In this document: positions 3,329 through 42,642 of the stretch, piece after piece
How the letters are laid out: each line of letters opens with the position of its first letter
Numbering within the stretch: the first letter of the stretch is position 1
DNA from: an uncultured Bacteroidales bacterium
Lineage (GTDB): Bacteria; Bacteroidota; Bacteroidia; Bacteroidales; Paludibacteraceae
NCBI GenBank assembly: GCA_902774185.1
Contig: CACYHE010000021.1
Location: 1 to 42,960 of the forward strand
Reading direction: 5' to 3'
Length of the DNA: 42,960 nucleotides
Program-made: the position numbers and the translations under genes
Notes under the pieces: generated by a model
What the model saw: only the letters and a program-made list of their open reading frames with translations
Databases searched by the model: none
What the model was told of the DNA's origin: nothing

Positions 3329-3389
3329 AGACGGGCTTCGCCTGACAGAACACAGAACACAGACCGAATTACCATTCAGCAGAGCGGTC

Positions 3390-3965
3390 ATGTTTTTCCA
3401 ACTCTTCTGGACATATCTGAAGATCGGAACTTTCACTTTGGGTGGAGGTTATGCGATGTTGCCCTTGATCCAACGTGAAGTGGTGGACCGCAAGGGTTGG
3501 ATCGACGAGGAGGAATTTCTGAATATGATTGCCTTGGCGCAAGCTGCACCGGGACTGATAGCGGTCAATTCGGCTATCTTCATCGGTTGGCGCATCGGTG
3601 GTTGGCGCGGCGTAGCCGGCGCGGTGTTAGGGGCTGTTCTACCTTCCTTCTTGATTATTCTCGCTATCGCGATGGTCTTCCGGGACTGGAAAGAACTGCC
3701 GGCTGTGGAGGCGGTATTCAAGGGTGTCCGTCCGGCAGTCGTGGCTTTGATCGCAGCGCCTTTATTTAAATTAGCGAAATCCGCTATGAAGAGCAGAGAA
3801 CACAGAGCACAGAACACAGCCCGAAGCGCATTATTTCTTCTGGTTTCTTTAGCTGCGGCTTTGCTTATCTGGTTAGGTCATGTCAACCCTGTTTGGGTGA
3901 TACTCGCAACGGTATTATTGACGTTATGCTTTATCTTTCTCTCTTCCTATCGTTCTTCAAAATAG
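3390..3965 (+). CDS. Chromate transporter family, subunit 1
   Basis: This is one half of a split (short-chain) CHR-family transporter. CHR proteins export chromate, or related oxyanions, across the inner membrane. At 191 aa it has one CHR domain: TLGGGYAMLPLIQREVV near the N-terminus, then AQAAPGLIAVNSAIFIGWRIGG and several hydrophobic helices. It overlaps the next gene by 40 bp; the second half is presumably translated coupled and forms a heterodimer, as is known for short-chain CHR pairs. A cytoplasmic-loop stretch, KSREHRAQNTARS, is encoded by an ACAGAGCACAGAACACAG word repeat (3791-3820) that also lies in the spacer upstream of this gene. The actual substrate is not shown by sequence. Confidence 0.9.
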   Translation: MFFQLFWTYLKIGTFTLGGGYAMLPLIQREVVDRKGWIDEEEFLNMIALAQAAPGLIAVNSAIFIGWRIGGWRGVAGAVLGAVLPSFLIILAIAMVFRDWKELPAVEAVFKGVRPAVVALIAAPLFKLAKSAMKSREHRAQNTARSALFLLVSLAAALLIWLGHVNPVWVILATVLLTLCFIFLSSYRSSK

Positions 3966-4489
3966 GTCTCTTCGGATTCGGAGGGGGCTTGGCGATTCTT
4001 TCATTGATGCAGATGGAAGTGGAGCGTTATGGTTGGATGAGCCAACAGGAGTTCGTCGATATCGTGGCGGTGAGTCAAGTGACGCCGGGACCGATCGGTA
4101 TCAACTGCGCGACGTACGTCGGTTATACGGTAGGTGGTTTCTGGGGTAGTGTGTTGGCTACTTTTGCGATTGTGCTGCCGAGCCTGATCATCATGTTGAC
4201 GATATGTAAGATCTACTTCTGGTTAAGCAAACGCTTTCAAGGCAATCCGTATTTTGAGCAGACACTCCGCATGCTTCGTTTTGCGGTCATCGGTCTGATC
4301 GCATCGGCAGCATTGATGCTTATCAAACCGACCAACTTCATTGATCCGATCAGTTGGGTGATTTTCGGAGTGGTCGCTTTCTTTACCGTATTGCCGAATT
4401 TTATAAAAAACAAGATGACTGAGGTCATCAGTCATCCTATCTTATTGATTCTTCTTGCCGGAGTGGCAGGTTATTTCATCTATTCTTAA
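3926..4489 (+). CDS. Chromate transporter family, subunit 2
   Basis: This is the second half of the CHR pair (187 aa). The motifs FGFGGGLAILSLMQMEVE, SQVTPGPIGINCATYVGY and VIGLIASAALML correspond to one CHR domain. I chose the ATG at 3926 because MLYLSLFLSFFKIGLFGFGGG aligns with subunit 1's start; an upstream in-frame ATG (3893) would add 11 residues lying inside the previous gene. The stop codon TAA (4487-4489) shares three bases with the stop of the converging pcrA gene (4486-4488) in the palindrome TTAA, so there is no room for a terminator between them. Confidence 0.9.
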   Translation: MLYLSLFLSFFKIGLFGFGGGLAILSLMQMEVERYGWMSQQEFVDIVAVSQVTPGPIGINCATYVGYTVGGFWGSVLATFAIVLPSLIIMLTICKIYFWLSKRFQGNPYFEQTLRMLRFAVIGLIASAALMLIKPTNFIDPISWVIFGVVAFFTVLPNFIKNKMTEVISHPILLILLAGVAGYFIYS

Positions 4490-6735
4490 GCCCGTTCCAG
4501 TTTGGCGTGGGTGAGCAGGAGTGTCTTCGTTCCTTGGGTATCGAAGCGGATCTCTATCTTGTCGTTCTCCGTCACTTCGTCCCGATAGACACGCAGGACT
4601 GTACCGACGCCAAAGACGCGATGAGAGACGCGGTCATCGGGTTTCCACGCCGCATTTGTCAACGATGTCGTCGCTCCGCTAACAGGTGTCTTCGGAGAAG
4701 AGGTAGATCGAGATGTCGAGATGTCGAGATCACGAGGTCTCGAAAAAGTCTGTGCACTGTTAGTAAAACGGTCTGTGCTCTGTGGTCTTGTCATCTCGAA
4801 ATATTGGCGGTCGATGTCTTGCAGGAACCGGCTGGGTGAGTTGAAGGTGAAAGAACCGTTACGGAAACGTTGCCGCGCAAAAGAGAGGTAACACTGTTCC
4901 TCGGCACGCGTGATGGCTACGTAGAGCAGGCGTCGTTCTTCTTCTATCTCAGACGGCTTGATGCAGAACTGCGAAGGGAAGAGTTGTTCTTCGAGTCCAA
5001 CGATGAAGACCACCGGGAACTCGAGTCCTTTGGCGGCATGAACGGTCATGAGCGTGACGCGTTCGGTTGTGTCGGTGAGGTTCTCGTCCTGATCAGTCTG
5101 CAGACTGACTTCGGAGAGGAAATCGGTGATGGGCGTGTAGTCGATACCTTCCTTCGCCCGTTGTTCCACGAACTCATGGATGGCGTTGAGTAGCTCCTGC
5201 ACGTTCTGCGCCCGGTCGATACCTTCGGTAGAACGATCCATGGCAAGGGCGGTCATCACGCCGGAGGTACGCAGCACCGTCTCCGTGAATGCGAAGGCAT
5301 CCAGGGTCTCACTTTGTTCATGATAGGTATCGATGAGGGCAGCGAAAGCTTGCAGTTTCTTCTTGGTCGCTGCGCTGACATCGAGTCCCGTATCGTCGGG
5401 TTGACGCATGACGTCCAGATAACACTTATGATGCTCGATCGCATTCGCCGACACTTTTTTCATCGTCGTTTCACCGATACCTCTACCGGGAAAACCGACG
5501 ATACGCAGGAGCGCTTCGTTATCGCGTGCGTTCACCGCCAGACGGAGGTAACCCAAGGCGTCTTTGATCTCTTTGCGTTGGTAGAAAGAGGTACCACCGT
5601 AGATACGGTAAGGGATATTGAGTTTGCGTAACTCTCCTTCGATGACGCGGCTCTGTGCGTTCGTGCGATACAAAACGGCAAAAGCGTCGTACCCTTTATG
5701 CCGCATTCGTTGGATCTTCGTAGCCACGCCGAGTGCTTCGGTGCGGTCGTCCATATAGGGTTGCAGGTTCAAGGGTTGACCTGCCTCTTTCTCCGAATAG
5801 ACCGTCTTCTCTATCTGGTGTTGGTTCTTATGAATGAGCGAGTTAGCCGCATTGACGATGTTTTGCGTAGAGCGGTAGTTGCGTTCCAATTTGAATAACT
5901 TCGCATTGGGGTACACCTGCCGGAAATTGAGGATATTACGAATGTCCGCTCCCCGGAAGGAATATATCGACTGGGCATCGTCTCCTACTACGCAGATGTT
6001 GTTCTGCGGTTCGGTCAGTTTTTTGATCAGCAGAAACTGAATATAGTTCGTGTCCTGGTACTCGTCCACAAGGATATATTGGAACTGTTGCTGGTATCTG
6101 TTTCTTACTTCCGGACTAAGATCCATGAGACGGAGCATGTTAATCAGCAGGTCGTCGAAGTCCATGGCGTTGGCTGCTTTAAGCCGGGCTTCGTACAAAG
6201 CATAGATCGTTGCAAACTCATACATCCGCATCTCCCGGTCTTCGCGCAGCAGGTTCTGGTTCATCTCATATTCACGTGGACTGACACCGTTGTTTTTCAT
6301 CATGGAGATACGTGCCTGAACAGCTCCGGACTTGTAGATCTTCTCATCCAACCCCCGCTCTTTGCAGATGGCTTTGATGACCGATTTGCTATCGGGCGTG
6401 TCGTAGATGGAGAAATCGCGTGTGTAGCCCAACAGGTCGGCGTAGGGACGAATGAGGCGCGTGCAGATCGAGTGGAACGTGCCCATTGCCAGATAACGCG
6501 CATCATTGGCGGACACAAGTCTGGCGATTCGTTCTTTCATCTCGCGTGCCGCTTTATTGGTGAACGTGAGCGCCATGATACGAGAAGCAGGTACGCCTTG
6601 CTGCAAGAGATAAGCGATGCGATAGGTGAGCACACGCGTCTTACCCGAACCCGCACCGGCTACAATGAGAGAAGGACCTTCCGTATAAGTCACTGCCTCC
6701 CGTTGGGAACTATTTAATTGGTCTAAAAAATCCAT
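4486..6735 (-). CDS. pcrA: ATP-dependent DNA helicase PcrA/UvrD
   Basis: Superfamily 1A 3'-5' DNA helicase acting in repair and replication restart. At 749 aa it is the usual length. Visible motifs in order: Q-motif LNSSQREAV (8-15), Walker A AGAGSGKT (26-33), DEYQDTN (Walker B), VVGDDAQSIYSFRGA (III), LERNYRST (IV), VTLMTVHAAKGLEFPVVF (V) and RRLLYVAITRAEEQ (VI). The C-terminus has the tudor-like DDRVSHRVFGVGTVL segment typical of PcrA. The linker before it (roughly residues 645-680) is low complexity and coded by tandem words at 4706-4795. Transcription starts from 6786-6755, divergent from the methyltransferase gene. The stop overlaps that of the convergent chromate transporter. Confidence 0.95.
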   Translation of the reverse strand: MDFLDQLNSSQREAVTYTEGPSLIVAGAGSGKTRVLTYRIAYLLQQGVPASRIMALTFTNKAAREMKERIARLVSANDARYLAMGTFHSICTRLIRPYADLLGYTRDFSIYDTPDSKSVIKAICKERGLDEKIYKSGAVQARISMMKNNGVSPREYEMNQNLLREDREMRMYEFATIYALYEARLKAANAMDFDDLLINMLRLMDLSPEVRNRYQQQFQYILVDEYQDTNYIQFLLIKKLTEPQNNICVVGDDAQSIYSFRGADIRNILNFRQVYPNAKLFKLERNYRSTQNIVNAANSLIHKNQHQIEKTVYSEKEAGQPLNLQPYMDDRTEALGVATKIQRMRHKGYDAFAVLYRTNAQSRVIEGELRKLNIPYRIYGGTSFYQRKEIKDALGYLRLAVNARDNEALLRIVGFPGRGIGETTMKKVSANAIEHHKCYLDVMRQPDDTGLDVSAATKKKLQAFAALIDTYHEQSETLDAFAFTETVLRTSGVMTALAMDRSTEGIDRAQNVQELLNAIHEFVEQRAKEGIDYTPITDFLSEVSLQTDQDENLTDTTERVTLMTVHAAKGLEFPVVFIVGLEEQLFPSQFCIKPSEIEEERRLLYVAITRAEEQCYLSFARQRFRNGSFTFNSPSRFLQDIDRQYFEMTRPQSTDRFTNSAQTFSRPRDLDISTSRSTSSPKTPVSGATTSLTNAAWKPDDRVSHRVFGVGTVLRVYRDEVTENDKIEIRFDTQGTKTLLLTHAKLERA

Positions 6736-6821: not shown

Positions 6822-8162
6822 ATGCTGCCGGTCGATTTCATAGAGAGTATGCATCAGCAGATGGGCAATGAAGCGGAACTGCTGATTCGGGCGCTGGAGA
6901 CAGAGCCTGTTACCTCTATCCGGCTGAATAGTAAGTTGGATGTGCTGACTTTTGAAGGCGAACCGGAAGAGGTGCCTTGGCATATTGACGGTTATTATTT
7001 GAGCGAACGTCCGCAGTTTACCTTGGATCCCCTTTTCCACGCCGGTTGTTACTATGTGCAGGAGGCGAGTTCGATGTTCATCCAGCAGATATTGGAGCAG
7101 TATGTCGATACCTCGTCTATCGTGCTGGATCTGTGTGCGGCGCCGGGAGGCAAGTCCACACTGATCAGTGAGTTTTTGGGTGGTGACGGCTTGTTGCTGA
7201 GTAATGAAGTTGTGCGGCAACGCGTGTTTATCTTAAGTGAGAACATCCAGAAATGGGGCAACGGCAATACGGTGGTGACGCATAACAGTGCCGAAGAGTA
7301 CGGTGAGCGTTGCAAGCACCTGTTCGATTGTATTCTGATCGATGCGCCTTGTTCGGGGGAAGGAATGTTCCGTAAGGACGAGCAAGCCCGTAACGAATGG
7401 AGTCTGCGTGCAGTCAAACAGTGTGCGGAGCGGCAACGCAGCATCCTGATGGATGTGTGGGACGCACTCAAACCCGGAGGTATCCTGATCTATTCGACCT
7501 GCACGTTCAACGAGGAGGAGAACGAGAAGAATGTCGAGTGGTTGGCAGAGACTTTAGGCGCCGATGTATTGCCGGTGGATTATGATCCCACATGGGGTAT
7601 CACCGAAGGCGTCATGGGGTACCATTTCTATCCGCATAAGACCAAAGGTGAAGGATTCTACGTGTGCGCGTTACGCAAACATGCAGGCTTGGTAGAGACG
7701 GTGAAGATCAAATCTCCGAAGAAAGAAACGGCGATGCCGCATCCGGAATATCTGCCCGTCATGCGCAGTTGGTTGCAACATCCGGATGAGTGGGCAATCC
7801 GTTATTCGGACCGTTTCGCAACAGCTTATCCGATGAAGTTTAAAGAGATCATCGATTGGTTAGGCACGCAGTTAACCTGCATCTCTACCGGCTTTGGTTT
7901 GGGCGAAGAACGCGGTAAAGGTATCGCTCCGCAGCATAGTGTAAGTATGGCGAAAGACCTCCGTAAGGAAGCCTTTCCGAATGTAGCGCTGACGCGTGAA
8001 CAAGCACTCAGTTATTTGCGGACCGAGGCTTTGATGCTCGCCGGTGTCCCCCTTGGTTTGGTCCTTTTGACCTATGAGGGCGTCCCCCTCGGTTTCGCGA
8101 AGAATGTCGGGAACCGCCTGAATAACCTTTACCCGAATGAGTGGCGGATCCGCCATCTTTGA
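6822..8162 (+). CDS. rsmF: RsmF-like rRNA m5C methyltransferase
   Basis: NOL1/NOP2/Sun-family SAM-dependent RNA cytosine-C5 methyltransferase, probably acting on 16S rRNA. Seen: SAM motif LDLCAAPGGKSTLISE (residues ~101-116), DAPCSGEGMFRKDE (motif IV with the release cysteine) and YSTCTFNEEENE (motif VI with the catalytic cysteine). A C-terminal RNA-binding region ends GFAKNVGNRLNNLYPNEWRIRHL, which is the family's usual ending. At 446 aa the length is normal. The C-terminal 155 bp overlap the converging DEAD-box helicase, yet this ending looks conserved here and so is the constrained strand. The exact target base cannot be told from sequence. Confidence 0.9.
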   Translation: MLPVDFIESMHQQMGNEAELLIRALETEPVTSIRLNSKLDVLTFEGEPEEVPWHIDGYYLSERPQFTLDPLFHAGCYYVQEASSMFIQQILEQYVDTSSIVLDLCAAPGGKSTLISEFLGGDGLLLSNEVVRQRVFILSENIQKWGNGNTVVTHNSAEEYGERCKHLFDCILIDAPCSGEGMFRKDEQARNEWSLRAVKQCAERQRSILMDVWDALKPGGILIYSTCTFNEEENEKNVEWLAETLGADVLPVDYDPTWGITEGVMGYHFYPHKTKGEGFYVCALRKHAGLVETVKIKSPKKETAMPHPEYLPVMRSWLQHPDEWAIRYSDRFATAYPMKFKEIIDWLGTQLTCISTGFGLGEERGKGIAPQHSVSMAKDLRKEAFPNVALTREQALSYLRTEALMLAGVPLGLVLLTYEGVPLGFAKNVGNRLNNLYPNEWRIRHL

Positions 8163-9282
8163 TTGGTGATTTGTCATTGGTCATTGGTGATTTCAGAAAC
8201 CTTTCTATCTTTTTCCAATAATGTACGTCGTCCGGTGCGATAAGCGTCATCGCTTCTCCGCTGTTCTCGGCACGTGCTGTTCGACCGATACGATGGACAT
8301 AGTCTTCAGGGTCATGCGGTACGTCGTAGTTGATTACCAGCGGAACGTCCGTTACATCGATACCACGGGATACCACATCGGTAGCCACCAGCACATCTAT
8401 CTTTCCGTTCCGAAAATCCAACATCACCTGGTCCCGTTCGTGTTGCTCCAGGTCCGAATGCATCGCACGCGCGTCTATATGGATTGCGCGTAACGTGCGC
8501 GTGAGCTCTTTGACGCGTTGCTTCTTACCGGCAAAGATGATGACTTTCTTTAAATCCCTACCCTCCAGTAATGCCTGCACTTTAGCCGGTTTCTCCCCCT
8601 CATTGACGAATTCGTGCATCTGTTTGATGCTCTCCGGCGGACGGGAAACAGCGATTTGAACCTCAACGGGTTGGTGCATGATGGTCTTGGCTAACTGCCG
8701 AATCTTAGGCGGCATGGTAGCCGAGAAGAGAATCGTTTGGCGGTCTTTGGGTAGTTTACGTACGATGGTCATGATGTCATCGTAGAATCCCATATCGAGC
8801 ATACGGTCTGCTTCGTCGAGGATGAAGTATTTGACGCCGGAGAAGTCCACATCGTAGATGTTCATCTGACTCAGTAAACGTCCCGGCGTAGCGATGACGA
8901 TGTCGGCACCTTTCTGTAACCCCGTCACTTGTGTCCCCCAGGCGCCGTTATCCTTACCGCCATAGATGGCGACGGAAGAGAAAGGCACATAGAACCCGAA
9001 GCCTTCCATCTGTTGGTCTATCTGTTGCGCCAGTTCGCGTGTAGGCGCCATGATGATGGCGTTCAGTTTATCGGGGTCATGGTCATCGAAGGCGAGGTTC
9101 GTCAATAACGGCAAGATATACGCAGCGGTCTTACCCGTACCCGTTTGGGCACAAGCAATCACGTCGTGACCATCCAAGATCACGGGTATCGCCTTCTCTT
9201 GCACCGGGGTACACTCATCGAAATGCATGTCCCACAATGCATCCAAGACCTCATCCGATAATGCTAACTCGTCAAAATACAT
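8008..9282 (-). CDS. DEAD-box RNA helicase (RhlE-like)
   Basis: ATP-dependent RNA helicase for RNA remodelling or ribosome assembly. Motifs in order: Q motif FDECTPVQEKAIP, AQTGTGKTAAY (I), PTRELAQQ (Ia), DEADRMLDMGF (II), SATMP (III), VATDVVSRGIDV (V) and HRIGRTARA (VI). At 424 aa the core ends about residue 365 (KKIERFLK). The remaining ~57 residues (KSPMTNDKSPIKDGG, then a Gly/Arg/Ser-rich, RGG-like basic tail) are coded by a word repeat (8161-8194) and by the antisense of the rsmF 3' end, giving a 155 bp convergent overlap. It lies downstream of the SDR gene with a 27-bp spacer of ACGATGTACGAT words, and is probably last in the thioredoxin operon. Confidence 0.92.
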   Translation of the reverse strand: MYFDELALSDEVLDALWDMHFDECTPVQEKAIPVILDGHDVIACAQTGTGKTAAYILPLLTNLAFDDHDPDKLNAIIMAPTRELAQQIDQQMEGFGFYVPFSSVAIYGGKDNGAWGTQVTGLQKGADIVIATPGRLLSQMNIYDVDFSGVKYFILDEADRMLDMGFYDDIMTIVRKLPKDRQTILFSATMPPKIRQLAKTIMHQPVEVQIAVSRPPESIKQMHEFVNEGEKPAKVQALLEGRDLKKVIIFAGKKQRVKELTRTLRAIHIDARAMHSDLEQHERDQVMLDFRNGKIDVLVATDVVSRGIDVTDVPLVINYDVPHDPEDYVHRIGRTARAENSGEAMTLIAPDDVHYWKKIERFLKSPMTNDKSPIKDGGSATHSGKGYSGGSRHSSRNRGGRPHRSKGPNQGGHRRASKPRSANN

Positions 9283-9309
9283 GTACGATGTACGATTTAC
9301 GATGTACGA

Positions 9310-10824
9310 TTAATTCTCCCACCCCTGAAAGACCTCTGGACCGTACACATTATCCTCATCCTTTTCATGAAGCGGTGTCCAGAGTTGCGCGAAGAAGGGG
9401 TTTTGTTTGGCTACGCGGTCCCAATGCCAAGGAACTTGTTTCTCTTTCGGTTCAAAGGCATATGGGTACGGCATGTCGTAGGGCGACCAGTGCCCGCCTA
9501 AGAGGATTAGACGACGTCCGGCTTTGAAGGTATTTCCGTTTGCGTCCTGCCAGGTGTCATTACCCAGATATTTACCGCCACGGAAAACAGCCGCTTTGTT
9601 CAACTCCGCATCGGTAAGGCTATCGACATCTTTGGTCTCATCGTATCCGTGATCCAGCAATACCGGTTTCTCACTGTTATGACTCACATCGAAATGCTTC
9701 CAGTCGGGTATCGCTTTGTATGCCTCTACCGAACCGTAATAAGCGTGGATACGTTGTTCCACATTGTTCTTGATCCACCATTGGGTACCGTGTTCCTTGC
9801 TGTTCGCCATCTTACGCATCGCCAGTTTGACACAATGCGGGAACAGTTTGGCGATATGCGTCTTGGCGGCAAACTTGATGCCGGCAGGCAGTGTATGGGA
9901 CTTGGCCATCTGTGCGAAATACTCCTTGACGGGCAGGTTGGCACGGAAATGCAAGAACTCTTCCAGTTTATCGCCGTCAATGTACCACATGCCATGGAAA
10001 TTACGGGTGGTGAACCAGTTGGCATTGAATATCTGTTGGGGTTTGGGACAACCGATGGCATCGAGCAGCAGACATTCGAACTCATAGTTGGAAAGTCGGT
10101 ACTCTTCACCCGAACCGATGTTATAGTAGTTATTCCAGAATGCCTTAGGCACTTCGGGACGGCATACGCGTTCAAGCAGCCGACCGCTGTCTTCGACGGT
10201 AGCCCACTCCAAGACACCACGGATAGGCACATGGAACATGATCGGGTCGTAGTTCTTGAGGATCGCCGGATAGAGGATGCCGGACTGACGCAGACTGACC
10301 CAAGTCTTGATTCCCGAGTCGGTGATGATACGTTCGGCAAGTGCTTTGGTCAGACCGTAATGGTCGTATGCGGACACACAGATCGGATCACCGGCTCTAC
10401 CCCAATGCAGGGGTTCACGACGATCCCCCATCTGCGCTACCGAACCGACATAAACCACTTTGGGTTGCTGATCTTCGGGTTGCGCTAACACCGCTTTGGT
10501 GATATATTCTGCAGCCGTGATATTGGTGCGCAGGGTCGCTTTCGGACGGTAGTCCGCTTGAGGCGAGACCATGCCGCCTACATGCAACACGATATCCGCT
10601 CCGGACACGCCTCTAAGCACATCTTCGTAGTTAGTAAGGTCACCCCAGATGATATGCAAGTTGTCATATTTCGCCAAGATTGGCGAGAGTAACTCCTTGT
10701 TCTTCTTGCTGGGACGGGCTAAGATCCGCAATTCATATTGCTCCGGATAACGAAGTATCTCTGTCATTCCGGCAAAACCCATCGTTCCGGTGGCACCTGT
10801 TAAAAAGACGGTTGTCTTTTGCAT
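9310..10824 (-). CDS. Extended SDR (NAD-dependent epimerase family) with extra C-terminal domain
   Basis: The N-terminal ~330 residues are an extended short-chain dehydrogenase/reductase of the epimerase/dehydratase family. Seen: nucleotide-binding GATGTMG (residues ~10-16), substrate-side GSVAQMG, and catalytic YDHYGLTK (YxxxK). The substrate is not evident. The C-terminal ~170 residues go beyond the normal family length. They contain FRGGKYLGND and LILLGGHWSPYD, which resemble a treble-clef or zinc-ribbon segment that has lost its cysteines (inference). Total length is 504 aa. It lies between the antiporter (23 bp upstream, spacer of GGTTATT words) and the helicase, and is likely cotranscribed with them. 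Confidence 0.8.
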   Translation of the reverse strand: MQKTTVFLTGATGTMGFAGMTEILRYPEQYELRILARPSKKNKELLSPILAKYDNLHIIWGDLTNYEDVLRGVSGADIVLHVGGMVSPQADYRPKATLRTNITAAEYITKAVLAQPEDQQPKVVYVGSVAQMGDRREPLHWGRAGDPICVSAYDHYGLTKALAERIITDSGIKTWVSLRQSGILYPAILKNYDPIMFHVPIRGVLEWATVEDSGRLLERVCRPEVPKAFWNNYYNIGSGEEYRLSNYEFECLLLDAIGCPKPQQIFNANWFTTRNFHGMWYIDGDKLEEFLHFRANLPVKEYFAQMAKSHTLPAGIKFAAKTHIAKLFPHCVKLAMRKMANSKEHGTQWWIKNNVEQRIHAYYGSVEAYKAIPDWKHFDVSHNSEKPVLLDHGYDETKDVDSLTDAELNKAAVFRGGKYLGNDTWQDANGNTFKAGRRLILLGGHWSPYDMPYPYAFEPKEKQVPWHWDRVAKQNPFFAQLWTPLHEKDEDNVYGPEVFQGWEN

Positions 10825-10847
10825 TTGTTATTCTAATTGGTTATTGG

Positions 10848-12467
10848 TTATTGGTTATTTATTTTTTTCTTTCTCATCCGGGCAAAAAGACGGTCGAAAC
10901 GTTCACGTGTTTTGCGGCGCAAGTCTTCCCGCCATTGTGTTTCCTCCTCGGCATCATCGATCATATGTTGGTAAGTGGCTTGGGCATCAATATCACTGAT
11001 AACCAGTAGCTTGTCGCCCGATTGTAGTTCACTGGAACCCGTAGGAACGAAGAAATCTTCTCCTCGGCGTACCATGATGACCAAGGTACGGGGAGGAATA
11101 GAGAGTTCCTTCAGCGTGTTCCCTTTCGCCAATTGTTGATCGGTCACTTCCACTTCGCGTGCCGAAGACTGAATCTCATCCGGCAGGTCCAAGTCAAAAT
11201 GCTCCAGCGACCGTTCTTCTTCCGGCGGCGTGTCAAGACGCAGTTTTTTAGCCACAAGGGTTAAGGTAGTACCTTGCGTGAGTAGCGAAACGAGCGTACA
11301 CAAGAAGACCACATTGAAGATTACATCAGCGTGTGGCACGCCTTCCGCCTTGCACATGATAGCGAAGATGATAGGTACGGCCCCTTTGAGCCCCACCCAA
11401 CTGAGCATCAGTTTATCACGTTGGCGGTAGTTACGGAAGGGGAGCATACAGAGCCAGACAGATAATGGACGGGAGATACAAAGCATCACGATACTGATGA
11501 TCAGGCATGGTAACCACACATGATAGTCCAAAAGGTCAGCCGGCTCAACCATCAGACCTAACATCAAGAACATCACCAGTTGACTCAACCACGTCAAGCC
11601 GTTGAAGAACGAACGGGTCTGGCGTTTACGGGTGAACTTGTTATTTCCGATGATCAAACCGCCTACATACACAGCAAGGTAGGTGTTTCCTTGCAGGTAA
11701 TAGGTGATGGAGAAGATAAAGATACAAGCGGTCAGCACCATGATCGGGTACAGGGCTTCGTTACCCAGTTTCACCCGTCGCATCAGCAGTACCAGTCCTT
11801 GTCCGAAGGCGTAACCGAGCACCGTTCCCATCACCAGTTGGACGACAACGGTCTGGATGATCGGCAGTGCCGACACCGTTCCGTTACCCGAAGCGTCCAA
11901 GCCCAGCACAACGCCGATGAGGGTGGTGGTCAGTACATACGCCATAGGGTCGTTGGCACCGGACTCCAGTTCCAATAAGGGACGTAGGTTATGCTTCAAC
12001 CCGATACCGTTGGTGCGCATGATAGAGAAGACACTGGCACTGTCGGTACTCGACATCGTGGCGGCTATAAGGAGCGCCATCCAGATAGATACCGTTTTCA
12101 CGGCACTGAGCCATCCGAAGATATAATAGACGATGACACCGGTGATAGCACAAGTGAACAGCACACCTAAGGTGGCCAAAGTGATACCGGGTGCCATGAC
12201 CGATTTGATGTCGCTAAGCCGTGTCTCCATACCTCCGGTGAAGAGGATGATACACATCGCCAAGGTACTAATCGCTTGCGCCGGTCCGCTATCGATTGTA
12301 AAACCGGCACTTCCGAATAAAGAGGCTACGCCATGGGAACCGAACAACATACCTACTGCCAAAAAAAGCAGCAGAGCCGGTACGCCGTACTTATAACCTA
12401 TCTTATCCGCAAAAATGCTGACGAAGAATAGCAACGACAAGATTAGTAAAACCAATTCAACCTGCAT
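10848..12467 (-). CDS. Cation/proton antiporter (CPA1, NhaP2-like) with RCK_C domain
   Basis: Inner-membrane monovalent cation (K+ or Na+)/H+ antiporter of the CPA1 family. Residues 1-~390 are a run of hydrophobic helices with family-like segments (LLFLAVGMLFGSHGV, CIILFTGGME, LESGANDPMAYVLT containing the ion-site Asp, GLKGAVPIIFA). Residues ~430-505 form a TrkA-C/RCK_C-like regulatory domain (LSIPPRTLVIMVRRGEDFFVP, SGDKLLVISD). The 539-aa length and this architecture match NhaP2/CvrA-type K+/H+ antiporters. The last residues and stop codon (NNQ-stop) are coded by a TTATTGG word repeat, so the native end may be slightly altered. It starts 5 bp after the thioredoxin gene, indicating an operon. 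Confidence 0.88.
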   Translation of the reverse strand: MQVELVLLILSLLFFVSIFADKIGYKYGVPALLLFLAVGMLFGSHGVASLFGSAGFTIDSGPAQAISTLAMCIILFTGGMETRLSDIKSVMAPGITLATLGVLFTCAITGVIVYYIFGWLSAVKTVSIWMALLIAATMSSTDSASVFSIMRTNGIGLKHNLRPLLELESGANDPMAYVLTTTLIGVVLGLDASGNGTVSALPIIQTVVVQLVMGTVLGYAFGQGLVLLMRRVKLGNEALYPIMVLTACIFIFSITYYLQGNTYLAVYVGGLIIGNNKFTRKRQTRSFFNGLTWLSQLVMFLMLGLMVEPADLLDYHVWLPCLIISIVMLCISRPLSVWLCMLPFRNYRQRDKLMLSWVGLKGAVPIIFAIMCKAEGVPHADVIFNVVFLCTLVSLLTQGTTLTLVAKKLRLDTPPEEERSLEHFDLDLPDEIQSSAREVEVTDQQLAKGNTLKELSIPPRTLVIMVRRGEDFFVPTGSSELQSGDKLLVISDIDAQATYQHMIDDAEEETQWREDLRRKTRERFDRLFARMRKKKINNQ

Positions 12468-14708: not shown

Positions 14709-14730
14709 TTTAAGATTTAAGATTTAAGAT

Positions 14731-15523: not shown

Positions 15524-15545
15524 AAATTTTTAACGATTTAACCAT

Positions 15546-16415: not shown

Positions 16416-16480
16416 AAAGTTATTTACGATTTGGTCATTTACGATTTGGTCATTTATTTGTTCATTTAGCTATTTAACCA

Positions 16481-16840: not shown

Positions 16841-16899
16841 AATGGCTCAATGGTTAAATGTCTCAATAAATGGTACATGGTACATGACCAAATGGTACA

Positions 16900-23654: not shown

Positions 23655-23672
23655 TGTTTTTAAAAATCGCTG

Positions 23673-26489: not shown

Positions 26490-26496
26490 AAGTTGA

Positions 26497-29914: not shown

Positions 29915-29980
29915 CTAATTGACGATTGGACGATTTACGATTGAACGATTTATTGACAATTGAATAAATTGTACCATTTA

Positions 29981-32911: not shown

Positions 32912-34715
32912 GGATTATCGATTAGCGATTAGCTGTTGGCTGTTGGCTGTTGGCTTGACGGCATATGCGCAGAACGACTCGACGTTCAACCGCAGTGTGA
33001 CGGTAGAGCGGGATTTTCAACCGGTTATTCAGGCAGCAGGTAAGATCAGCGTCAAGCCGACGATCGAGCAGACGACGATGGAACCGGTATCGGTGGAGTA
33101 CTCGGACTATACGGCCGATGTGACACCGGGTTCCACTTTCCATCCCTTGCTTTCGCAGCCTACCCGTTTTGAACCGGGCAAGGTCTATCACGGTTATATC
33201 CGAGGCGGTTTGGGTCATCCGAACACCTTGTTTGATTTCGGTTATCATCTGGATGACGGTAAGAACTCGATCTTAGATGTTTATGCGCATCATCATGCCG
33301 AATGGGGGTTGGCTGCGCTCAGTAAGAGTAAGTTAGGACTGGATTTTACCCATACCTTCCGAACCTGTAACCTGTATTTCGGTTTGAACGGCGGGAATAT
33401 CTTCTACCATAAATACGGTCATTTCTACGACTATAGTTCGTCGCACGGGATGTGGGAGAAGAACGATGTCGCTTATCCGAAGCCCTATACCATCGGGGAC
33501 AAAGACAAGACCTCGCTATGGACCGTTGAGGCTTTCTTAGGACTGCAGTCGAATGCGAAACAGGATTTTCAGTACAAAGTGCAGACGGGCTATAGGCTCT
33601 TCTCCAAACCGGGTGCGGTAAGTGAACACCAGGTGCGTACGCTCTTTGACTTCGATTGGCACACGGGTGACCATCATGCCGGAGCGAATGTCTATGTGCA
33701 GAATAATATCCTACAACTGCAGGGTAAGTTGGATGCCGCAATACCTGATTCGCTTTATGCCAACCGTCATAATATCCGTTTTGAACCCTATTATGCGTAT
33801 GAAGGGAACCGCATCAACCTGCATGTGGGTGTGAATTTCGATATCAATATCGGTAAGGGTCATCACCATCTGTCGGGTATCGAAAATCTCTCTTTTGCTC
33901 CTTCACCACATATCAACATGGAGGCGCAGATTGCCAAGAAATGGTTGACGGTTTATGCGGACGTGACGGGAGACTTAGGGCTGGGTTCGTTGCAGAGCTA
34001 CATGGAAGAGAACCGCTACAGTTTCATCCATGCCGGTATCATCCATCCCTGTTCGCCTTATACCCCGGTGGACGTAGAGGCCGGTTTGCATATCCGTCCG
34101 TACCGTGACTTGCTTTTTGAAGTTCACGGCGGTTATGCCTATATGATGGATGAAGACTTCATGATCGCGACTGCAGATACCGCTTCGCCTTTGGCGCCGT
34201 TGAGTATCAATATTCCGGTGGGCGAGTTCATTCACCGGCACACGGATTACCAACGCGGTAAGATAGGCGGACAGATGCACTATCACTATCGGGACTATGT
34301 GAATATTCATCTGAACGGCGATTATTATATCTGGAAGGGTACTTCTACGGTCTATGACCGTCCGAACTGGACCATCGACCTGCGTGTGGACGGTAAGATC
34401 GACGAACACTGGTCGTTGTACTCGGATAACCATCTGACGGGAAGCCGTCTGGCTTTGGCTACCGACGGGACCCATGAACTGAAACCGGTGATTGATCTGA
34501 ACTTGGGTCTGCAATACAACATGTGGGTCGGTCAGGCGAAAGGGGAAAAGCTGAAGGTGAAAGGGAACGGAGAGCAAGTGTTACATCCTGCGCCGCAACC
34601 CAACCTGACGTTTTTCTTCCAACTCAATAACTGGTTACATCGCAAGAACGAATACGTGTACGGTTATCGTTCGCAGGGCATTAACTTCCTGCTTGGCGCC
34701 ACGTACCGGTTCTAA
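32895..34715 (+). CDS. Outer-membrane beta-barrel protein, 606 aa
   Basis: It has a signal peptide (about 1-25, ending LAVGLTAYAQ), then a plug-like N-terminal stretch NRSVTVERDFQPVIQAAGKI, and many amphipathic strands rich in Tyr, His and Gly, ending in an aromatic residue (LLGATYRF). This is a TonB-dependent-receptor-like or FadL-like barrel of unknown cargo. The signal peptide is coded by repeats of GATTA and CTGTTGG words (32903-32955), and KGEKLKVKGNGEQ near residue 550 by the GGTGAAAGG family. Overlap with the TPR gene (17 bp) implies coupled expression. Function is unknown. Confidence 0.82.
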   Translation: MKRTIKDYRLAISCWLLAVGLTAYAQNDSTFNRSVTVERDFQPVIQAAGKISVKPTIEQTTMEPVSVEYSDYTADVTPGSTFHPLLSQPTRFEPGKVYHGYIRGGLGHPNTLFDFGYHLDDGKNSILDVYAHHHAEWGLAALSKSKLGLDFTHTFRTCNLYFGLNGGNIFYHKYGHFYDYSSSHGMWEKNDVAYPKPYTIGDKDKTSLWTVEAFLGLQSNAKQDFQYKVQTGYRLFSKPGAVSEHQVRTLFDFDWHTGDHHAGANVYVQNNILQLQGKLDAAIPDSLYANRHNIRFEPYYAYEGNRINLHVGVNFDINIGKGHHHLSGIENLSFAPSPHINMEAQIAKKWLTVYADVTGDLGLGSLQSYMEENRYSFIHAGIIHPCSPYTPVDVEAGLHIRPYRDLLFEVHGGYAYMMDEDFMIATADTASPLAPLSINIPVGEFIHRHTDYQRGKIGGQMHYHYRDYVNIHLNGDYYIWKGTSTVYDRPNWTIDLRVDGKIDEHWSLYSDNHLTGSRLALATDGTHELKPVIDLNLGLQYNMWVGQAKGEKLKVKGNGEQVLHPAPQPNLTFFFQLNNWLHRKNEYVYGYRSQGINFLLGATYRF

Positions 34716-34741
34716 TTGATAATTGATAATTGACAATTGAT

Positions 34742-35635
34742 ATGGCACTTATTTCAGTTATCGGAGGCGCGAATGTCGATCTGTCAGCTATGCTGAACGA
34801 TGCGTTCATCGCTGCGGACTCTAATCCCGGGCATGTGGAGGTAGGATACGGCGGTGTGGCGCGTAATATCGCGCATAACTTATCCTTACTCGGTGCGCGT
34901 ACGCAGTTACTGACTATCTTCGGCGGTGACCTGTTCGGCGGTTTGCTGCATGACTACTGCAAGCAACAGGGTATTGACGTTCACCTGTCCGAACGGGAGT
35001 CATCTGCCCGTTCCGGTATGTATCTGTGCATCCATAATCACGGTGGTGAGATGATCGCCGCAGTGGCGGATACCGATATCATCAAAGGCATCACGCCGGA
35101 GTGGTTGGAGAAACGAAGCGGTGAGTTGAACCTGTCTGATTTTATCGTGGCGGATACCAATATCGGCGAAGACGCGATACGGTGGTTGATGGATCATGTG
35201 ACCGTGCCGCTTTTTATCGACGGTGTCAGTTCGACCAAAGCTCATCGGGTCATCAATGCCTTGCAAAAAGCGAAGTTACCTTACCTGCATACACTTAAGT
35301 TGAATCTCAAAGAAGCTTTGGCGGTGACGAATACTTTGACCTACGCGGATGCTGCACAAGCTTTGTTGAACCTCGGTGTAGCGCATGTGTATATCACCTT
35401 GGGTGCAGACGGCGTTTATTGTCGTAATGCCGCAGAAGAGTGGTTGTTTCCGGCTCTGCCGGGTGAGGTAGTTAACACGACCGGAGCGGGTGACGCCTTC
35501 CTGGCAGGAGTCGTGTATGCGTATGCGAAGGAAATCGATTTTCCGCAAACAGCCCATTATGGTCTGATGGCGGCACGTGCCACCCTCATGAGTCCCAAAG
35601 CCGTTAACCCTGATATTGCAAATATATTATTGTAG
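34742..35635 (+). CDS. psuK: PfkB-family kinase, probably pseudouridine kinase
   Basis: Ribokinase-fold sugar kinase of 297 aa. Seen: VIGGANVDLSAML at the N-terminus, GGVARNIAHNLSLLGA, and the PfkB signature NTTGAGDAFLAG with catalytic Asp. PsuK assignment comes from the next gene, psuG: together they convert pseudouridine to pseudouridine-5'-phosphate, then to uracil and ribose-5-phosphate. I chose ATG 34742; the frame upstream reads into AATTGATAATTG words. Other PfkB substrates (adenosine, ribose) cannot be excluded on sequence alone. Confidence 0.85.
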   Translation: MALISVIGGANVDLSAMLNDAFIAADSNPGHVEVGYGGVARNIAHNLSLLGARTQLLTIFGGDLFGGLLHDYCKQQGIDVHLSERESSARSGMYLCIHNHGGEMIAAVADTDIIKGITPEWLEKRSGELNLSDFIVADTNIGEDAIRWLMDHVTVPLFIDGVSSTKAHRVINALQKAKLPYLHTLKLNLKEALAVTNTLTYADAAQALLNLGVAHVYITLGADGVYCRNAAEEWLFPALPGEVVNTTGAGDAFLAGVVYAYAKEIDFPQTAHYGLMAARATLMSPKAVNPDIANILL

Positions 35636-35725
35636 TTTGAAATAGTTTGAAGGTTTGAGATGGTTTGAAGGTTTGAAGTAGTTTGAGATGGTTTGAAGTA
35701 GTTTGAGATGGTTTGAAGTAGTTAA
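35636..35725. repeat. GTTTGA-word repeat, left half of psuK-psuG spacer
   Basis: Alternating ~10-bp words GTTTGAGATG, GTTTGAAGTA and GTTTGAAG. They are complementary in sense to the TCAAAC words of the neighbouring array, so the whole spacer can form a long imperfect hairpin. The same family is upstream of the lipoprotein gene at 42598-42642. Confidence 0.85.
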
Positions 35726-35845
35726 CAACCTCAAACGCGAAGCATCAAACAACTTCAAACGCGAAGCATCAAACAACCTCAAACGCGAAGCATCAAACAA
35801 CCTCAAACGCGAAGCATCAAACAACCTCAAACGCGAAGCATCAAA
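35726..35845. repeat. Five tandem 24-bp units, right half of psuK-psuG spacer
   Basis: Exactly five contiguous 24-bp units (starts 35726, 35750, 35774, 35798, 35822). Each reads CAAC(C/T)TCAAACGCG followed by AAGCATCAAA and they are almost identical. There are no unique spacers, so it is not CRISPR. It ends 9 bp before the psuG ATG. Confidence 0.95.
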
Positions 35846-35854
35846 CATTTATTT

Positions 35855-37509: not shown

Positions 37510-38331
37510 GGGTAGGTTACGCTCCACGTGACCGACCGGAGCATTAAAGAGAACGGGGTAGTCGTAGTCTGCGACTACCTCTTTTATTGTCTCATAGACC
37601 GTCTGATTCATCTGCGGATCTGCCTCGCAGTCACTAAACTGCCCGACCACCAGACCGCCTATGTTCGCCAGTACTCCGCTCATACGCAGGTTCCGCATCA
37701 TCCGGTCGATATGATAATGCCGCTCGGCGATATCCTCGATCAACAAAATCGGTCTAAAATTTGAAATCTTAAATCTTAAATCATAAATCGACCGAAGGTC
37801 GTACGCCGTGCCTTGTAAGCCGTAGAGGACGGAGAGGTTGCCACCTACGAGGGGTCCTTCGGCATGTCCGAAACGGTTAAGCGGGTGGGAAGGCCAAGCA
37901 TATTCAACGGCTTCGCCGTTCAGTATCTTACGAAGTGCCACGATGGGTTCGCTATCTTCCGGTAAGGTAGCGATATGCTTACACATGATACCGTGGACTG
38001 AACACTGATTACTGATCGCTGATAATTGATGCAAGGCGGTGATGTCGCTGAACCCGATGATCGGTTTGGTGATAGCCGGTACACGGTCGATGATGCGTTG
38101 CAGTCCGTATCCGCCACGCGAACAGAGGATGGCATCGACGGAAGGGTCGTTCAGCGCTTCGATGAGATCTGCCAGACGGTCTTCATCTGTTCCTGCAAAA
38201 CGTCCCCATACGTCGCGTGCATGACGTCCTTCGGAGACAATAAAACCCCACGACTCCAGACGACTTCTCGCCCCGTCTATATAGGCGGGGTCTATAGCTC
38301 CTGATGGCGATATGATACGAATCTCTTTCAA
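37435..38331 (-). CDS. LD-carboxypeptidase (S66 family)
   Basis: Cleaves the terminal D-alanine from the tetrapeptide of murein turnover (L,D-peptidase). Family motifs: IISPSGAID at the start, nucleophile Ser in ILCSRGGYGLQRI, Glu in PILLIEDIAE, and His in FNAPVGHVERNLPL. At 298 aa the length is typical. Two internal stretches, SAISNQCSVHG and YDLRSIYDLRFKISN, are coded by word repeats (37997-38030 and 37754-37790). The C-terminal 75 bp overlap the convergent nucleotidase gene. It begins 10 bp downstream of the SDR gene. Confidence 0.9.
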   Translation of the reverse strand: MKEIRIISPSGAIDPAYIDGARSRLESWGFIVSEGRHARDVWGRFAGTDEDRLADLIEALNDPSVDAILCSRGGYGLQRIIDRVPAITKPIIGFSDITALHQLSAISNQCSVHGIMCKHIATLPEDSEPIVALRKILNGEAVEYAWPSHPLNRFGHAEGPLVGGNLSVLYGLQGTAYDLRSIYDLRFKISNFRPILLIEDIAERHYHIDRMMRNLRMSGVLANIGGLVVGQFSDCEADPQMNQTVYETIKEVVADYDYPVLFNAPVGHVERNLPLWLNRHTSIDSSPNGTLLLNGLDI

Positions 38332-38340: not shown

Positions 38341-39123
38341 TTAAGAATACACTTTGTGTTCGATCCAATTGACGAAGCGTTTGGGCAGGATCCGGTCGAG
38401 GAAACAGAACACGCGGTACTGAAAACCGCCTACGTACTGCGGACGGGGACTATGACAGGTGGCGATATGGTAGAATAGTTTGGCCATTTGGATGGGTTTC
38501 ATGCCGCCTCGCTCGTCGCGTTCCATGGTTGAGATGGCTTTGTTAGCATGTCGATAAACCTCTTCCCCTGCCGTTGATTTGTCCCGAGCATCGGTGAAAC
38601 CGGTACTGACGTCCCCCGGCATCATCACCGAGACGGAGATACCGAACTCCCGCACTTCGTTGGCGAGTGCCAAGGCATAAGCGTTGATTGCTGCTTTGGA
38701 GGCGGAGTAGAACGACTGATAGGGAACCGCCAGGATAGCTGCTACTGAAGAGGTATAGATGATCCGTCCGCTTTTCTGTTGCCGCAGAACGGGTAACACC
38801 GCTTGGGTAAAACGTACGGCGCCCATGAAGTTGACATCCATCTGATGTTGCGCAGCGGTGATATCCGTGAACTCGATCGAACCGGAGATACCGTATCCGG
38901 CATTGGAGATAACCACATCGATACGGTCCGTTTGGGTCATTACTTCTTGGATGGCGTTCTGGGCACTGGTACTGTCGCACACGTCACAGGTCACATGGGT
39001 GATACCGTCGTGGGACTGTCCGTGGCGACTGAGTTCAAAAACACGCCAGCCACGCTCCGCAAAGAGCATGGCTGTCGCTTTTCCTATACCTGAACTACCG
39101 CCCGATATGACAAGAGTCTTCAT
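38341..39123 (-). CDS. Short-chain dehydrogenase/reductase
   Basis: Classical SDR of 260 aa. Seen: TGxxxGxG-type nucleotide motif as SGGSSGIGKATA, NAG in VVISNAGYGI, and catalytic YSASK with upstream Ser in IIYTSSVAA. It lies directly downstream of the serine-palmitoyltransferase-like gene across a 120-bp spacer of AAATGGTA words. A role as 3-ketosphinganine reductase in Bacteroidales sphingolipid synthesis is plausible from position, but SDR sequence alone does not fix the substrate. Confidence 0.85.
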   Translation of the reverse strand: MKTLVISGGSSGIGKATAMLFAERGWRVFELSRHGQSHDGITHVTCDVCDSTSAQNAIQEVMTQTDRIDVVISNAGYGISGSIEFTDITAAQHQMDVNFMGAVRFTQAVLPVLRQQKSGRIIYTSSVAAILAVPYQSFYSASKAAINAYALALANEVREFGISVSVMMPGDVSTGFTDARDKSTAGEEVYRHANKAISTMERDERGGMKPIQMAKLFYHIATCHSPRPQYVGGFQYRVFCFLDRILPKRFVNWIEHKVYS

Positions 39124-39242
39124 AATTTACGATTTGTTCATGTACTATGTACCATTTATTTTGCCATTTGGTTATTTAGTTATTGAATGGTAAAATGGAC
39201 CAATAAATGACCAAATGGTAAATGATAAAATGGTAAATGGTT

Positions 39243-40427: not shown

Positions 40428-40552
40428 TGATTGATAGTTTAGAGTTTAGAGTTTAGAGTTTAGAGAAGTTTGCAAGTTTTAAGTTATAAGTTTCTCTTTC
40501 AACTTTCCACTAGACGGCTTCTCTCAACTCTCAACTTTCAACATTCAACTTA
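40428..40552. repeat. Word-repeat spacer between mdh and spt
   Basis: Contains TTTAGAG repeated four times, then TTTTAAGTTATAAG and AACTTTCAAC-type words, with an AGACGGCTTCTC segment between. No promoter matching the consensus and no terminator were seen here, so mdh and spt may be cotranscribed. Confidence 0.8.
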
Positions 40553-41643: not shown

Positions 41644-41664
41644 CCTTTTTTGAACACGGACCTT

Positions 41665-42591
41665 CTATTTTTGATTTACCAGATGAACACCTAAAGAATT
41701 GCACTTCGGTAGTAAACCGATGGATGCAACAACATTATCGGAGGACTGTTGTAAAACGAACGCCACATAGGCGTCATTGGTATCTTTCGAAGTAGATGTC
41801 CAGTAGAATGTTTCCGTTTCACTATCATTCTTAACACCCTCGCAGTCCACGCTACCTTGGCAGGCGATGAATATCCACTTACCGTTCGGGCCTTGGATCG
41901 AATAACCGTTCATTGGCGATTTTCCCCAATATCCCTCAGCTACAGAAGAACCGTTTACCCAAATACATTCGTTCATCAGTTCATTCCATTGCTCTTGCGT
42001 AGGAACGGCACCGCCAAAATCATGGATGGCGCGATCGTAGGTCCACAGACCCGGTTCGCTGATAGAAGCCCATAAGGTACCGGAGGTCAGCCCCAGATCG
42101 ACGTATTCTCTGGGCATAGTGAAGATCTGATAAGCGATATCGCCTAACACATTGAGGTTGGTATCCACCGGGAAGGCAAAGAGAATATATTCCATATTGG
42201 GCAAATAGTCCGTTCTGCTGTATGACCATTCTCCTTTGTGTACGGCAGGGGGCGCGAATAAGTATAGCAGGGCTTTAAAATTGAAACCGGCACCTGTGAG
42301 TTGTGCGAGCAAGGGTTCGGGAGATTCTTCGATGGATGGCGCCCCTACGCCTTCAAATGAGGCCAAGGTTGTACAAGCTGAAAAGTACCATACGGAGGTA
42401 TCAGAAGGCGTCACTGTCCAGGAAACTTCGTTCGAAGAGACCATGTTGATATCCATCTGGAACGTCAACGAATTCTTGGTTTTAGGGGAATCGTCGTCAT
42501 CGTCTTTCGGTTGAGACGGTTTGTTTTGTTCGCAAGAAGCGAAACTGACAGCTACTAAAATAGCAGCGATGAAGTAGAAGAATTTGTTCAT
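41665..42591 (-). CDS. Lipoprotein with FISUMP-like domain
   Basis: 308 aa. The lipoprotein signal MNKFFYFIAAILVAVSFASC has its lipobox Cys at 20. A short Asp/Ser linker and a beta domain (~35-155) follow. The C-terminal region matches the Fibrobacter succinogenes major paralogous-like pattern: YVDLGLTSGTLWASI, PTQEQWNELMNECIWV, GPNGKWIFIACQG and FYWTSTSKDT. It is probably a surface-exposed binding or structural protein; substrate unknown. I chose ATG 42591 because the longer frame translates the promoter. It lies between two near-identical terminator-promoter repeats, with a GTTTGA-word leader. Confidence 0.85.
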   Translation of the reverse strand: MNKFFYFIAAILVAVSFASCEQNKPSQPKDDDDDSPKTKNSLTFQMDINMVSSNEVSWTVTPSDTSVWYFSACTTLASFEGVGAPSIEESPEPLLAQLTGAGFNFKALLYLFAPPAVHKGEWSYSRTDYLPNMEYILFAFPVDTNLNVLGDIAYQIFTMPREYVDLGLTSGTLWASISEPGLWTYDRAIHDFGGAVPTQEQWNELMNECIWVNGSSVAEGYWGKSPMNGYSIQGPNGKWIFIACQGSVDCEGVKNDSETETFYWTSTSKDTNDAYVAFVLQQSSDNVVASIGLLPKCNSLGVHLVNQK

Positions 42592-42597
42592 AATGGT

Positions 42598-42642
42598 ATG
42601 TTGTTTGAGTTTGTTTGAGATGGTTTGATGTTGTTTGTTTTT
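42598..42642. repeat. GTTTGA-word repeat in lipoprotein leader
   Basis: Repeated TTGTTTGAG, ATGGTTTGATG words, the same family as the psuK-psuG spacer at 35636-35725. Confidence 0.8.

Follow-up and report, generated by a model that had tools for sequence, protein, structure and literature searches.

Heptamer tandem arrays and dispersed composite cassettes in leaders, signal peptides and linkers of an uncultured Bacteroidales bacterium

Results and discussion

The locus and its period-7 arrays

The DNA considered here (hereafter the window) is a 42,960-nt stretch of contig C21 (GenBank CACYHE010000021.1) in the 2.19 Mb draft genome (35 contigs, 87% complete) of an uncultured Bacteroidales bacterium. 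Its genes, named from Pfam and taken from crude gene calls that miss some of those present, include ones for a chromate transporter (chrA), PcrA, a DEAD helicase, PrmC, RibD, the Pot proteins (PotA to PotD), an outer membrane protein (OMP), LdcA and AspC; the only structured RNA detected in the window at gathering thresholds is a tRNA-Arg. The genus is a rumen and gut, Paludibacteraceae-like one; compared by PotB, the named genomes nearest to it are metagenome-assembled ones from rumen and gut, labelled Paludibacteraceae or uncultured Bacteroidales. Short A+T-rich words recur in the spacers between these genes and, in frame, inside several of them. We find that these words are mainly tandem arrays of period 7, that they differ by 7-nt units between close relatives, and that composite cassettes of ~55 and ~120 nt are dispersed at unlinked, mostly non-homologous genes of this one genome.

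An initial annotation made from the letters alone had described the words as a mix of 6–15 bp units. The tracts that it listed were recovered close to the positions it gave, both with Tandem Repeats Finder (TRF), run on the window, and with a direct period scan (exact runs and a relaxed array scan), but a single period, 7, dominates. TRF reports period 7, 14 or 21 in 32 of 57 rows, the remainder being other or overlapping periods (e.g. 4708–4743, period 8/16; 35633–35723, period 10/20; 35724–35847, period 24 with 5.2 copies). At period 7 the window has 13 exact self-overlap runs of at least 12 nt, and a 443 kb genome sample (the window plus 20 further stretches, L009–L028; ~20% of the 2.19 Mb) has 82. 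Three dinucleotide shuffles give 1.0–1.3 runs per period, and one of these runs is a 55-N stretch in L023 and no repeat. The words are thus far commoner than in shuffled sequence, which supports the annotation. In the relaxed scan of the same sample, 123 period-7 arrays stand against 0–16 at periods 4, 5, 6, 8, 9, 10, 11 and 13. The tandem 7-nt unit is thus clearly above both shuffles and other periods.

Word classes number 49 in the 443 kb sample and 135 across all array-bearing sequence examined, and the words are low in G+C (2.1 of 7 nt); promoter-like sequences, which also appeared in a 14-mer listing, were left out of the word counts. Array density is 27.8 per 100 kb in the source genome and 2.5–16.7 in nine relatives of the same genus (each sampled at 40–100 kb); two genomes from other families have 1.2 and 0. 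A 20-nt tract of GTTGAAA is present in 57 of 121 genomes of the genus, the source included, and in 7 of 394 other genomes of the phylum sample; counting the reversed pattern provides no control for this tract, the reversed word being a rotation of the same repeat. Loss of mismatch repair was considered as a cause of the arrays and rejected: PF00488 is found in 40 of 41 genomes, including the source genome G000 (open frames of 881 and 777 aa), which carries MutS plus a second MutS-family protein, and the sole genome without a match (G018) is 54% complete. An assembly artefact is likewise unlikely, because cassettes of the same kinds recur at orthologous genes and in assemblies that were deposited separately.

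Composite cassettes at unlinked genes

At the start of potC (27294–27397, forward strand) an n-region array of AAAGGTG/AAAGGTT (27303–27334) is followed by an h-region array of CAATTTT (27357–27384), and the whole ends near the A|Q cleavage site. Eight near-full copies of this stretch occur elsewhere in the genome at 81–89% identity. Ten copies align over ~120 nt, from the untranslated leader to the A|Q site, although one of the ten, at L271, does so over the signal-peptide half only; mean pairwise identity among the ten is 0.68–0.97 per 20-column bin, 0.58 in the bin at the 3' edge and 0.25–0.40 outside. The host genes encode PotC, a Wzi-like protein (below the Pfam cut-off), a CarboxypepD/DUF5686 protein, a TonB-plug receptor, two TPR proteins, a CarboxypepD/TonB-plug protein, the type IX secretion system protein PorQ, an S41 processing peptidase and one protein without assigned family; judged by these assignments, most of them, although not all, are unrelated. 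Signal peptides were recognised from a rough rule of thumb together with the A|Q site and family context, and not with a trained predictor, and the position of the cassette edge at A|Q fits the Q-rule described for Bacteroidetes, in which cleavage falls before glutamine (PMC5837995).

The gene for PorQ illustrates how the cassette and its host part company. In a protein search most PorQ orthologues align only from residue 14–38 and two from residue 7 (G440 carries the cassette itself), and residues 1–38 match seven other genes of the same genome as well as genes of G015, G440, G445 and G006. At E ≤ 1e-12 the cassette is present in 10 of 81 genomes of the genus; with up to ten candidates per genome scored, there are ten copies in the source genome, nine in G015, five in G440, four in G445, three in G485 and one in each of five more. 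Neighbouring genes in some of these genomes each have a cassette of their own, as if by local copying (G015, contigs C1 and C23, loci L273, L283, L287 and L292; G440, contig C36, L284 and L289; G445, contig C20).

A second dispersed family consists of leaders of ~55 nt. In the window there is one copy at 16844–16905 (forward strand; AATAAATGGTACATGGTACATGACCAAATGGTACAT), two in opposite orientations between sdr and aspC (39118–39239, reverse strand), a partial match (query 30–66) at 16416–16480 (reverse strand) with the rmlD start codon 6 nt past its end, and one in frame inside prmC (23074–23133, reverse strand; DQMTKYLNKWYMVNDQMVN), which is shorter in most of 29 relatives. The prmC insert (query 23068–23140) has 46 other matches in the genome, of 20–63 nt and 74–100% identity, some of them adjoining. 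An identical 33-mer, itself more than a simple periodic string, is common to the prmC copy and the copy at L027:7826, and unlinked loci in general share composite strings of 25–33 nt that are not simply periodic. A sense ATG opening a frame of at least 60 codons lies within –8 to 30 nt of the end in 17 of 25 readable copies, in nine of them exactly at +6, although this count has no matched null and the open frames are unvetted.

Within the sample, 119 of the 123 arrays have an ectopic match, and for 69 of 123 the match extends at least 12 nt past the periodic tract. Among control windows, 96 of 300 in spacers and 12 of 300 in coding sequence have any match at all; the comparison is a loose one, because the controls are less repetitive and were counted for any match and not for extension. 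The initial annotation had proposed a repeat-generating process tolerated or selected in both RNA and protein. Its arrays are real, but because copies stand at unlinked, non-homologous genes, local repeat generation alone is insufficient.

In-frame sites compared with relatives

The words do keep the reading frame where they occur in linkers, signal peptides and protein termini, as had been proposed, and in alignments with homologues most of the sites tested are insertions or replacements, with other words, or none, in sister species. The chrA array (3790–3819, forward strand, from the period scan; MKSREHRAQNTA) is one example: among 11 relatives aligned, five have no insert, five have other inserts and one is unalignable. 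At the C-terminus of the DEAD helicase an ATTGGTC/ATTGGTG array (8160–8192, reverse strand; peptide PMTNDKSPIKD) is in frame and also overlaps the end of the convergent rsmF; in four aligned relatives it is missing (L341), shorter (two) or represented by other residues (L338). In PcrA the linker before the tudor domain (4706–4795), which holds an octamer/hexadecamer tract (4708–4743, reverse strand), is variable in all 29 aligned relatives. PrmC has a GATTTMA array in frame directly before its VLDVGTGSG motif (23307–23347, reverse strand) and a GATTGGA-type array at its N-terminus (23617–23656, reverse strand, from TRF), and in 29 relatives the linkers have different residues or are shorter. 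Four word sites had been claimed for prmC, one of which (~22893–22930) proves to be a GC-rich insert of another family. RibD has an in-frame AGATTGA array (24214–24246, forward strand).

Larger sets of loci were available for the Pot proteins and for exported proteins. The PotA loop carries an in-frame GAATTAA array in the window (25886–25919, forward strand); of the 67 loci (out of 81) that passed the motif filter, 20 have a plain loop with RKEDEKRG, nine a period-7 array (several words) and three a GC-rich insert, the other loops being of different sequence with longer-period words in some, while of 1320 control segments 1.4% score as arrays. In the PotC signal peptide a period-7 array is found in 35 of 49 loci, with 26 words, against 0 of 490 control segments and 0–4 loci at periods 5, 6, 8, 9 and 10; these 49 loci, of up to 81, are those that passed the filter and come nearly all from the closer clade. 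A PotC loop with an in-frame ATGTACG array in the window (27493–27519, forward strand) has period-7 arrays in 11 of 41 loci, built from nine different words. Signal peptides of PorQ carry such arrays in 7 of 30 loci, our own genome included (null 0 of 300), and those of the OMP in 8 of 25 (window arrays at 32906–32955, forward strand; KDYRLAISCWLLAVGL). An OMP loop with in-frame AAAGGTG-type words (34538–34575, forward strand; KGEKLKVKGNGEQ) has other residues in most of nine relatives and is almost identical in L085. At one locus, L103, the PotC start has five tandem copies of an 8-codon (24-nt) unit (NNRAERLR) next to heptamer words.

The two ldcA sites part ways. An AAATCTT array (37757–37789, reverse strand; DLRSIYDLRFKISN) is in frame and exceeds most relatives in length. 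The site at 37997–38030, which had also been listed as carrying inserted words, aligns at equal or near-equal length with similar residues in 28 of 29 relatives, the 29th being unaligned; on the evidence of this alignment it is no insertion, shared residues in homologues being what the annotation itself had named as contrary evidence. Empty sites or different words were thus found at PotA, both PotC sites, prmC, chrA, the DEAD helicase, the first ldcA site and the OMP. The ldcA match of several relatives (G447, G465, G446, G455) contains one in-frame stop.

A second family of in-frame inserts is GC-rich and palindrome-like (CCTACCCCCAACCCCTCCCTGCAAGGAGGGGAG; peptides such as PTPDPSLKGGE) and lies in the window at 23870–23905 and 22893–22930. 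In relatives it appears in PotA of L068, L089 and L094 and in chrA of L356, some of these loops being the ones that hold heptamer arrays. A crude pattern finds four such inserts in the 443 kb sample, one of them inside a called gene; the insert in ribD was tallied as spacer because ribD is absent from the gene calls.

Placement of arrays relative to genes

When the 123 arrays are placed on the crude gene calls, 37 extend over a gene end, where 3.7 would be expected, and 42 lie between genes (31.2 expected); 36 are inside genes with the frame open (76.5 expected) and eight within 30 codons of a gene end (11.4 expected). Of the 83 arrays that do not lie deep in genes, 40 have an ATG with an open frame of at least 80 codons at –7 to 30 nt (either array end was counted); for random spacer positions the share is 23%. 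An array is present at 9 of 104 signal-peptide N-termini, at 5 of the 131 remaining N-termini and in 18 of 795 internal windows. At gene ends the sense strand is the richer in stops in 31 of 37 arrays and the antisense strand in three, a bias in part built into the count, since the stop codon of the gene itself may fall in the array; the corresponding counts are 16 and 6 of 29 for intergenic arrays and 13 and 22 of 44 for those in coding regions. We considered and rejected selection of the words for stops on one strand, the excess being modest here (0.66 versus 0.53 for G+C-matched words) and small in relatives (0.58).

The spacers of the window offer several examples. An ACAGAAC array followed by ACCG precedes the chromate transporter gene (3345–3363, forward strand), and the same composite (GAACACAGACCG) stands at three further sampled loci. 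An ATGTACG/ATTTACG array fills the spacer of two genes and overlaps the start codon of the helicase (9281–9310, reverse strand), an ATTTAAG array overlaps the ends of both an rnh-like open reading frame (ORF) and the DUF2461 gene between which it lies (14708–14734, reverse strand), and a GTTGAAA array spans the potA stop and the potB start (26469–26497, forward strand), where many relatives have other words. Between tRNA-Arg and rmlD is an ATTTACG array (15529–15563, reverse strand), and between potD and a TPR gene an ATTTACG/ATTGAACG composite (29918–29952, forward strand), the AATCGTCCAATCGT of which recurs at 11 further places in the sample. Other spacers hold arrays of ATTGGTT (10836–10859, reverse strand), TAATTGA (34713–34740, forward strand), TTTAGAG (40436–40465, reverse strand) and CTCTCAA/CTTTCAA (40521–40549, reverse strand).

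Longer units are present as well. The spacer past pfkB holds a 20-nt repeat and, after it, a 24-nt unit in about five tandem copies (35724–35847; AACAACCTCAAACGCGAAGCATCA, 98% matches). Near the contig start a 32-nt unit is repeated 2.9 times (2406–2498), and two 46–47-nt blocks are duplicated 2.1 kb apart (445–540 and 2543–2640).

Turnover between relatives

Closely related loci differ by whole units in a few cases: by 7 nt between L113 and L115, with flanks 94–100% alike, and also in L113/L116 and L111/L116, and by 14 nt in L086/L088. Such examples of whole-unit copy change are few, and of 132 non-identical core pairs four differ by exactly 7 nt. Elsewhere the core has been swapped for other words between 36-nt flanks that are 89–100% alike (L112/L113, L096/L099, L071/L086), or an array is present in one relative and absent from the other (L081/L080). 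Relatives with ~90–95% identical PotB can have unrelated repeat-built signal peptides on the next gene. In one PotC signal-peptide lineage (L059, L065, L068, L099, L104) the phase is constant while the word has changed in most copies (ATTGGTT, ATTGGTC, ATTGGCT, ATTTGTC).

Relation to known repeats

Heptanucleotide tandem repeats are familiar from cyanobacteria as short tandemly repeated repetitive (STRR) sequences. The initial annotation had held a process of the kind it proposed to be new.

The dominant period of 7 has precedents in heptameric simple sequence repeats: PMC4679880 and PMC4692102 both trace a heptamer excess and a slippage model to Mrazek et al. (2007), and GGGAATC heptamer repeats are reported from Xanthomonas and Nostoc (PMC4692102). 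As described in these papers, such repeats share with ours the 7-nt unit in several copies, a location mostly in spacers near gene ends and variation between close relatives, whereas the large number of word classes (49 and 135), the in-frame inserts in housekeeping proteins and the composite cassettes at non-homologous genes set ours apart. Comparable in placement are the TAACTGA direct repeats of Beggiatoaceae, Cyanobacteria and five Bacteroidetes (MacGregor, 2015; PMC4679880), heptamers that lie directly before start codons, occur in ORFs mainly at protein ends and place sense-direction stops in three frames; arrays and leader copies of the present genome also lie in sense position just upstream of start codons. 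That system has one word, whereas here there are many drifting ones, and signal-peptide cassettes go unmentioned in the portion of PMC4679880 covered here. Its canonical form AACTGAT is absent from the 49 word classes of the 443 kb sample; a short doublet of the reverse complement of TAACTGA occurs in a relative, L137. The Rickettsia palindromic elements (Ogata et al., 2000; 2002), as presented in PMC10969869, are likewise short dispersed repeats found in frame in unrelated genes, as we also observe, but they are ~150-bp palindromes with a conserved peptide, whereas ours are of 20–120 nt, heptamer-periodic, mostly without significant fold and situated as leaders and signal peptides.

In titles and abstract beginnings in PMC, with subscription journals and preprints outside the scope, we found no report of heptamer signal-peptide cassettes on unrelated genes, nor of orthologous sites at which one word has replaced another. 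Repeats of heptamers and repeats inserted in frame have each been described before; it is their combination that is new, and the sharing of cassettes across mostly unrelated genes is its most surprising part.

Origin of the arrays

We propose that the genus maintains a common stock of short A+T-rich sequences built of heptamer tandem arrays, which would be generated by 7-nt slippage. New copies would then arise by ectopic copying, through template switching or gene conversion at short homologies shared by the arrays, a route that would need no dedicated transposase. Selection would retain functional copies, whether as leaders that stop just short of a start codon, as hydrophobic signal peptides that end close to an A|Q site, or as open linkers in loops. 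With fast turnover, sister species would come to differ in the word at a given site or to have none there. We put this account, slippage plus ectopic copying of short cassettes under a filter of selection, at a probability of roughly 60%, its copying step being the part we infer. A stronger version, in which the heptamer cassettes are interchangeable leaders, signal peptides and linkers, made by slippage, copied ectopically and swapped wholesale between orthologues of sister species, is one that we hold tentatively, at somewhat less than even odds.

Several observations weigh against slippage with ectopic copying. Among 98 non-zero differences in core length, 65 are multiples of 3, as coding sites would lead one to expect, and 15 are multiples of 7 (seven of these being 21). 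A genome-specific repertoire of words near the pot operon was sought and rejected (18 of 716 pairs share a word; 441 of 2000 permutations are as high); array words are drawn from a genus-wide pool, and the signal peptides of PotC and the OMP are only weakly more similar within than between genomes (26 loci, one-sided permutation p 0.031). No donor–recipient event was seen in the sister-species comparisons. Expansion of the ~120-nt cassette is confined to the 10 of 81 genomes, and its identity is highest between homologous genes of different genomes (0.86, eight pairs), followed by non-homologous genes within a genome (0.81, 61 pairs) and then by copies across genomes (0.78), so that some speciation is younger than much of the spread. 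No spacer type, whether co-directional, divergent or convergent, is favoured by the arrays (60 co-directional versus 61.4 expected), at least one frame behind a leader copy (39208) runs antisense to aspC, and the unmatched leader count and loose array–control comparison given above fall on the same side.

Much of this could be had without any copying between loci, if slippage preferring 7 nt acted in place, words drifted and arrays were purged from catalytic regions, as in known heptameric simple sequence repeats. The 7-nt steps in a few pairs, the missing genome-specific repertoire and the PotC lineage that keeps its phase while its word drifts all agree with this, as does the finding that words are linked by single substitutions above random expectation (5.76 neighbours versus 4.40 ± 0.37 in composition-matched random sets). 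One-unit local expansion nevertheless fails to explain the composites of 25–33 nt at unlinked loci, which are not plainly periodic, the ~120-nt cassettes that carry an untranslated leader onto ten mostly unrelated genes, and the exchange of cores for other words between conserved flanks, and we regard in-place slippage as an unlikely sole cause. Convergent selection, under which A+T-rich, purine-rich or hydrophobic sequence is simply favoured in leaders and signal peptides, would account for the low G+C of the words, the sense-strand stop excess at gene ends and the arrays at signal-peptide N-termini; it sits badly with DNA identity of up to 97% in a 20-column bin together with a shared untranslated leader, with the different words that sister species use at the same site, and with an identical composite 33-mer in a spacer and in prmC, for which convergence is implausible, and we consider it very improbable.

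Dispersed copies and in-frame insertion are also what a family of palindromic elements would produce, whether like miniature inverted-repeat transposable elements or like those of Rickettsia, moved by a transposase in trans and heptameric only secondarily. The two halves of the cassette do form imperfect inverted heptamer arms, with RNA fold z of –2.0 to –4.2 in four of six copies, whereas the window copy (z –0.34) and two copies of the leader family (–0.50 and –1.13) fold no better than shuffles, and L264 only a little better (–1.28). Mean z is –0.94 for PotC signal-peptide DNA (9 of 49 below –2), –0.49 for all arrays (15 of 123) and –0.23 for random windows (6 of 120); a general hairpin structure of the arrays is not supported, fold z being near the random-window background. 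Cassette edges, moreover, track functional points (start codon, signal peptidase site), and reading of the edges in the alignments, where no systematic search for empty sites or duplications was made, turned up neither fixed terminal repeats nor target duplications; such an element seems to us improbable. Finally, homologous recombination of whole gene starts between gut sister species would make the mosaics a matter of horizontal exchange, and both the conserved flanks around exchanged cores and the potA–potB junction that L070 and L073 share, despite differing signal peptides, can be read in this way. It explains neither how one genome came to have copies on non-homologous genes nor where the differing cores originated; as the whole account it is the least credible of those considered, although interspecies recombination may add to turnover.

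Implications

As a rule, the origin of signal peptides and linkers, and the rate at which they are replaced, are deduced from deeply diverged sequences. With ten genes in a single genome sharing a cassette at the DNA level, the question of how targeting signals are born and exchanged can be put to the test, and the arrays provide a setting in which to ask why bacteria prefer a 7-nt repeat unit. If cassettes are indeed shuffled as modules, proteins in this genus would gain or swap export signals by the pasting of repeats.

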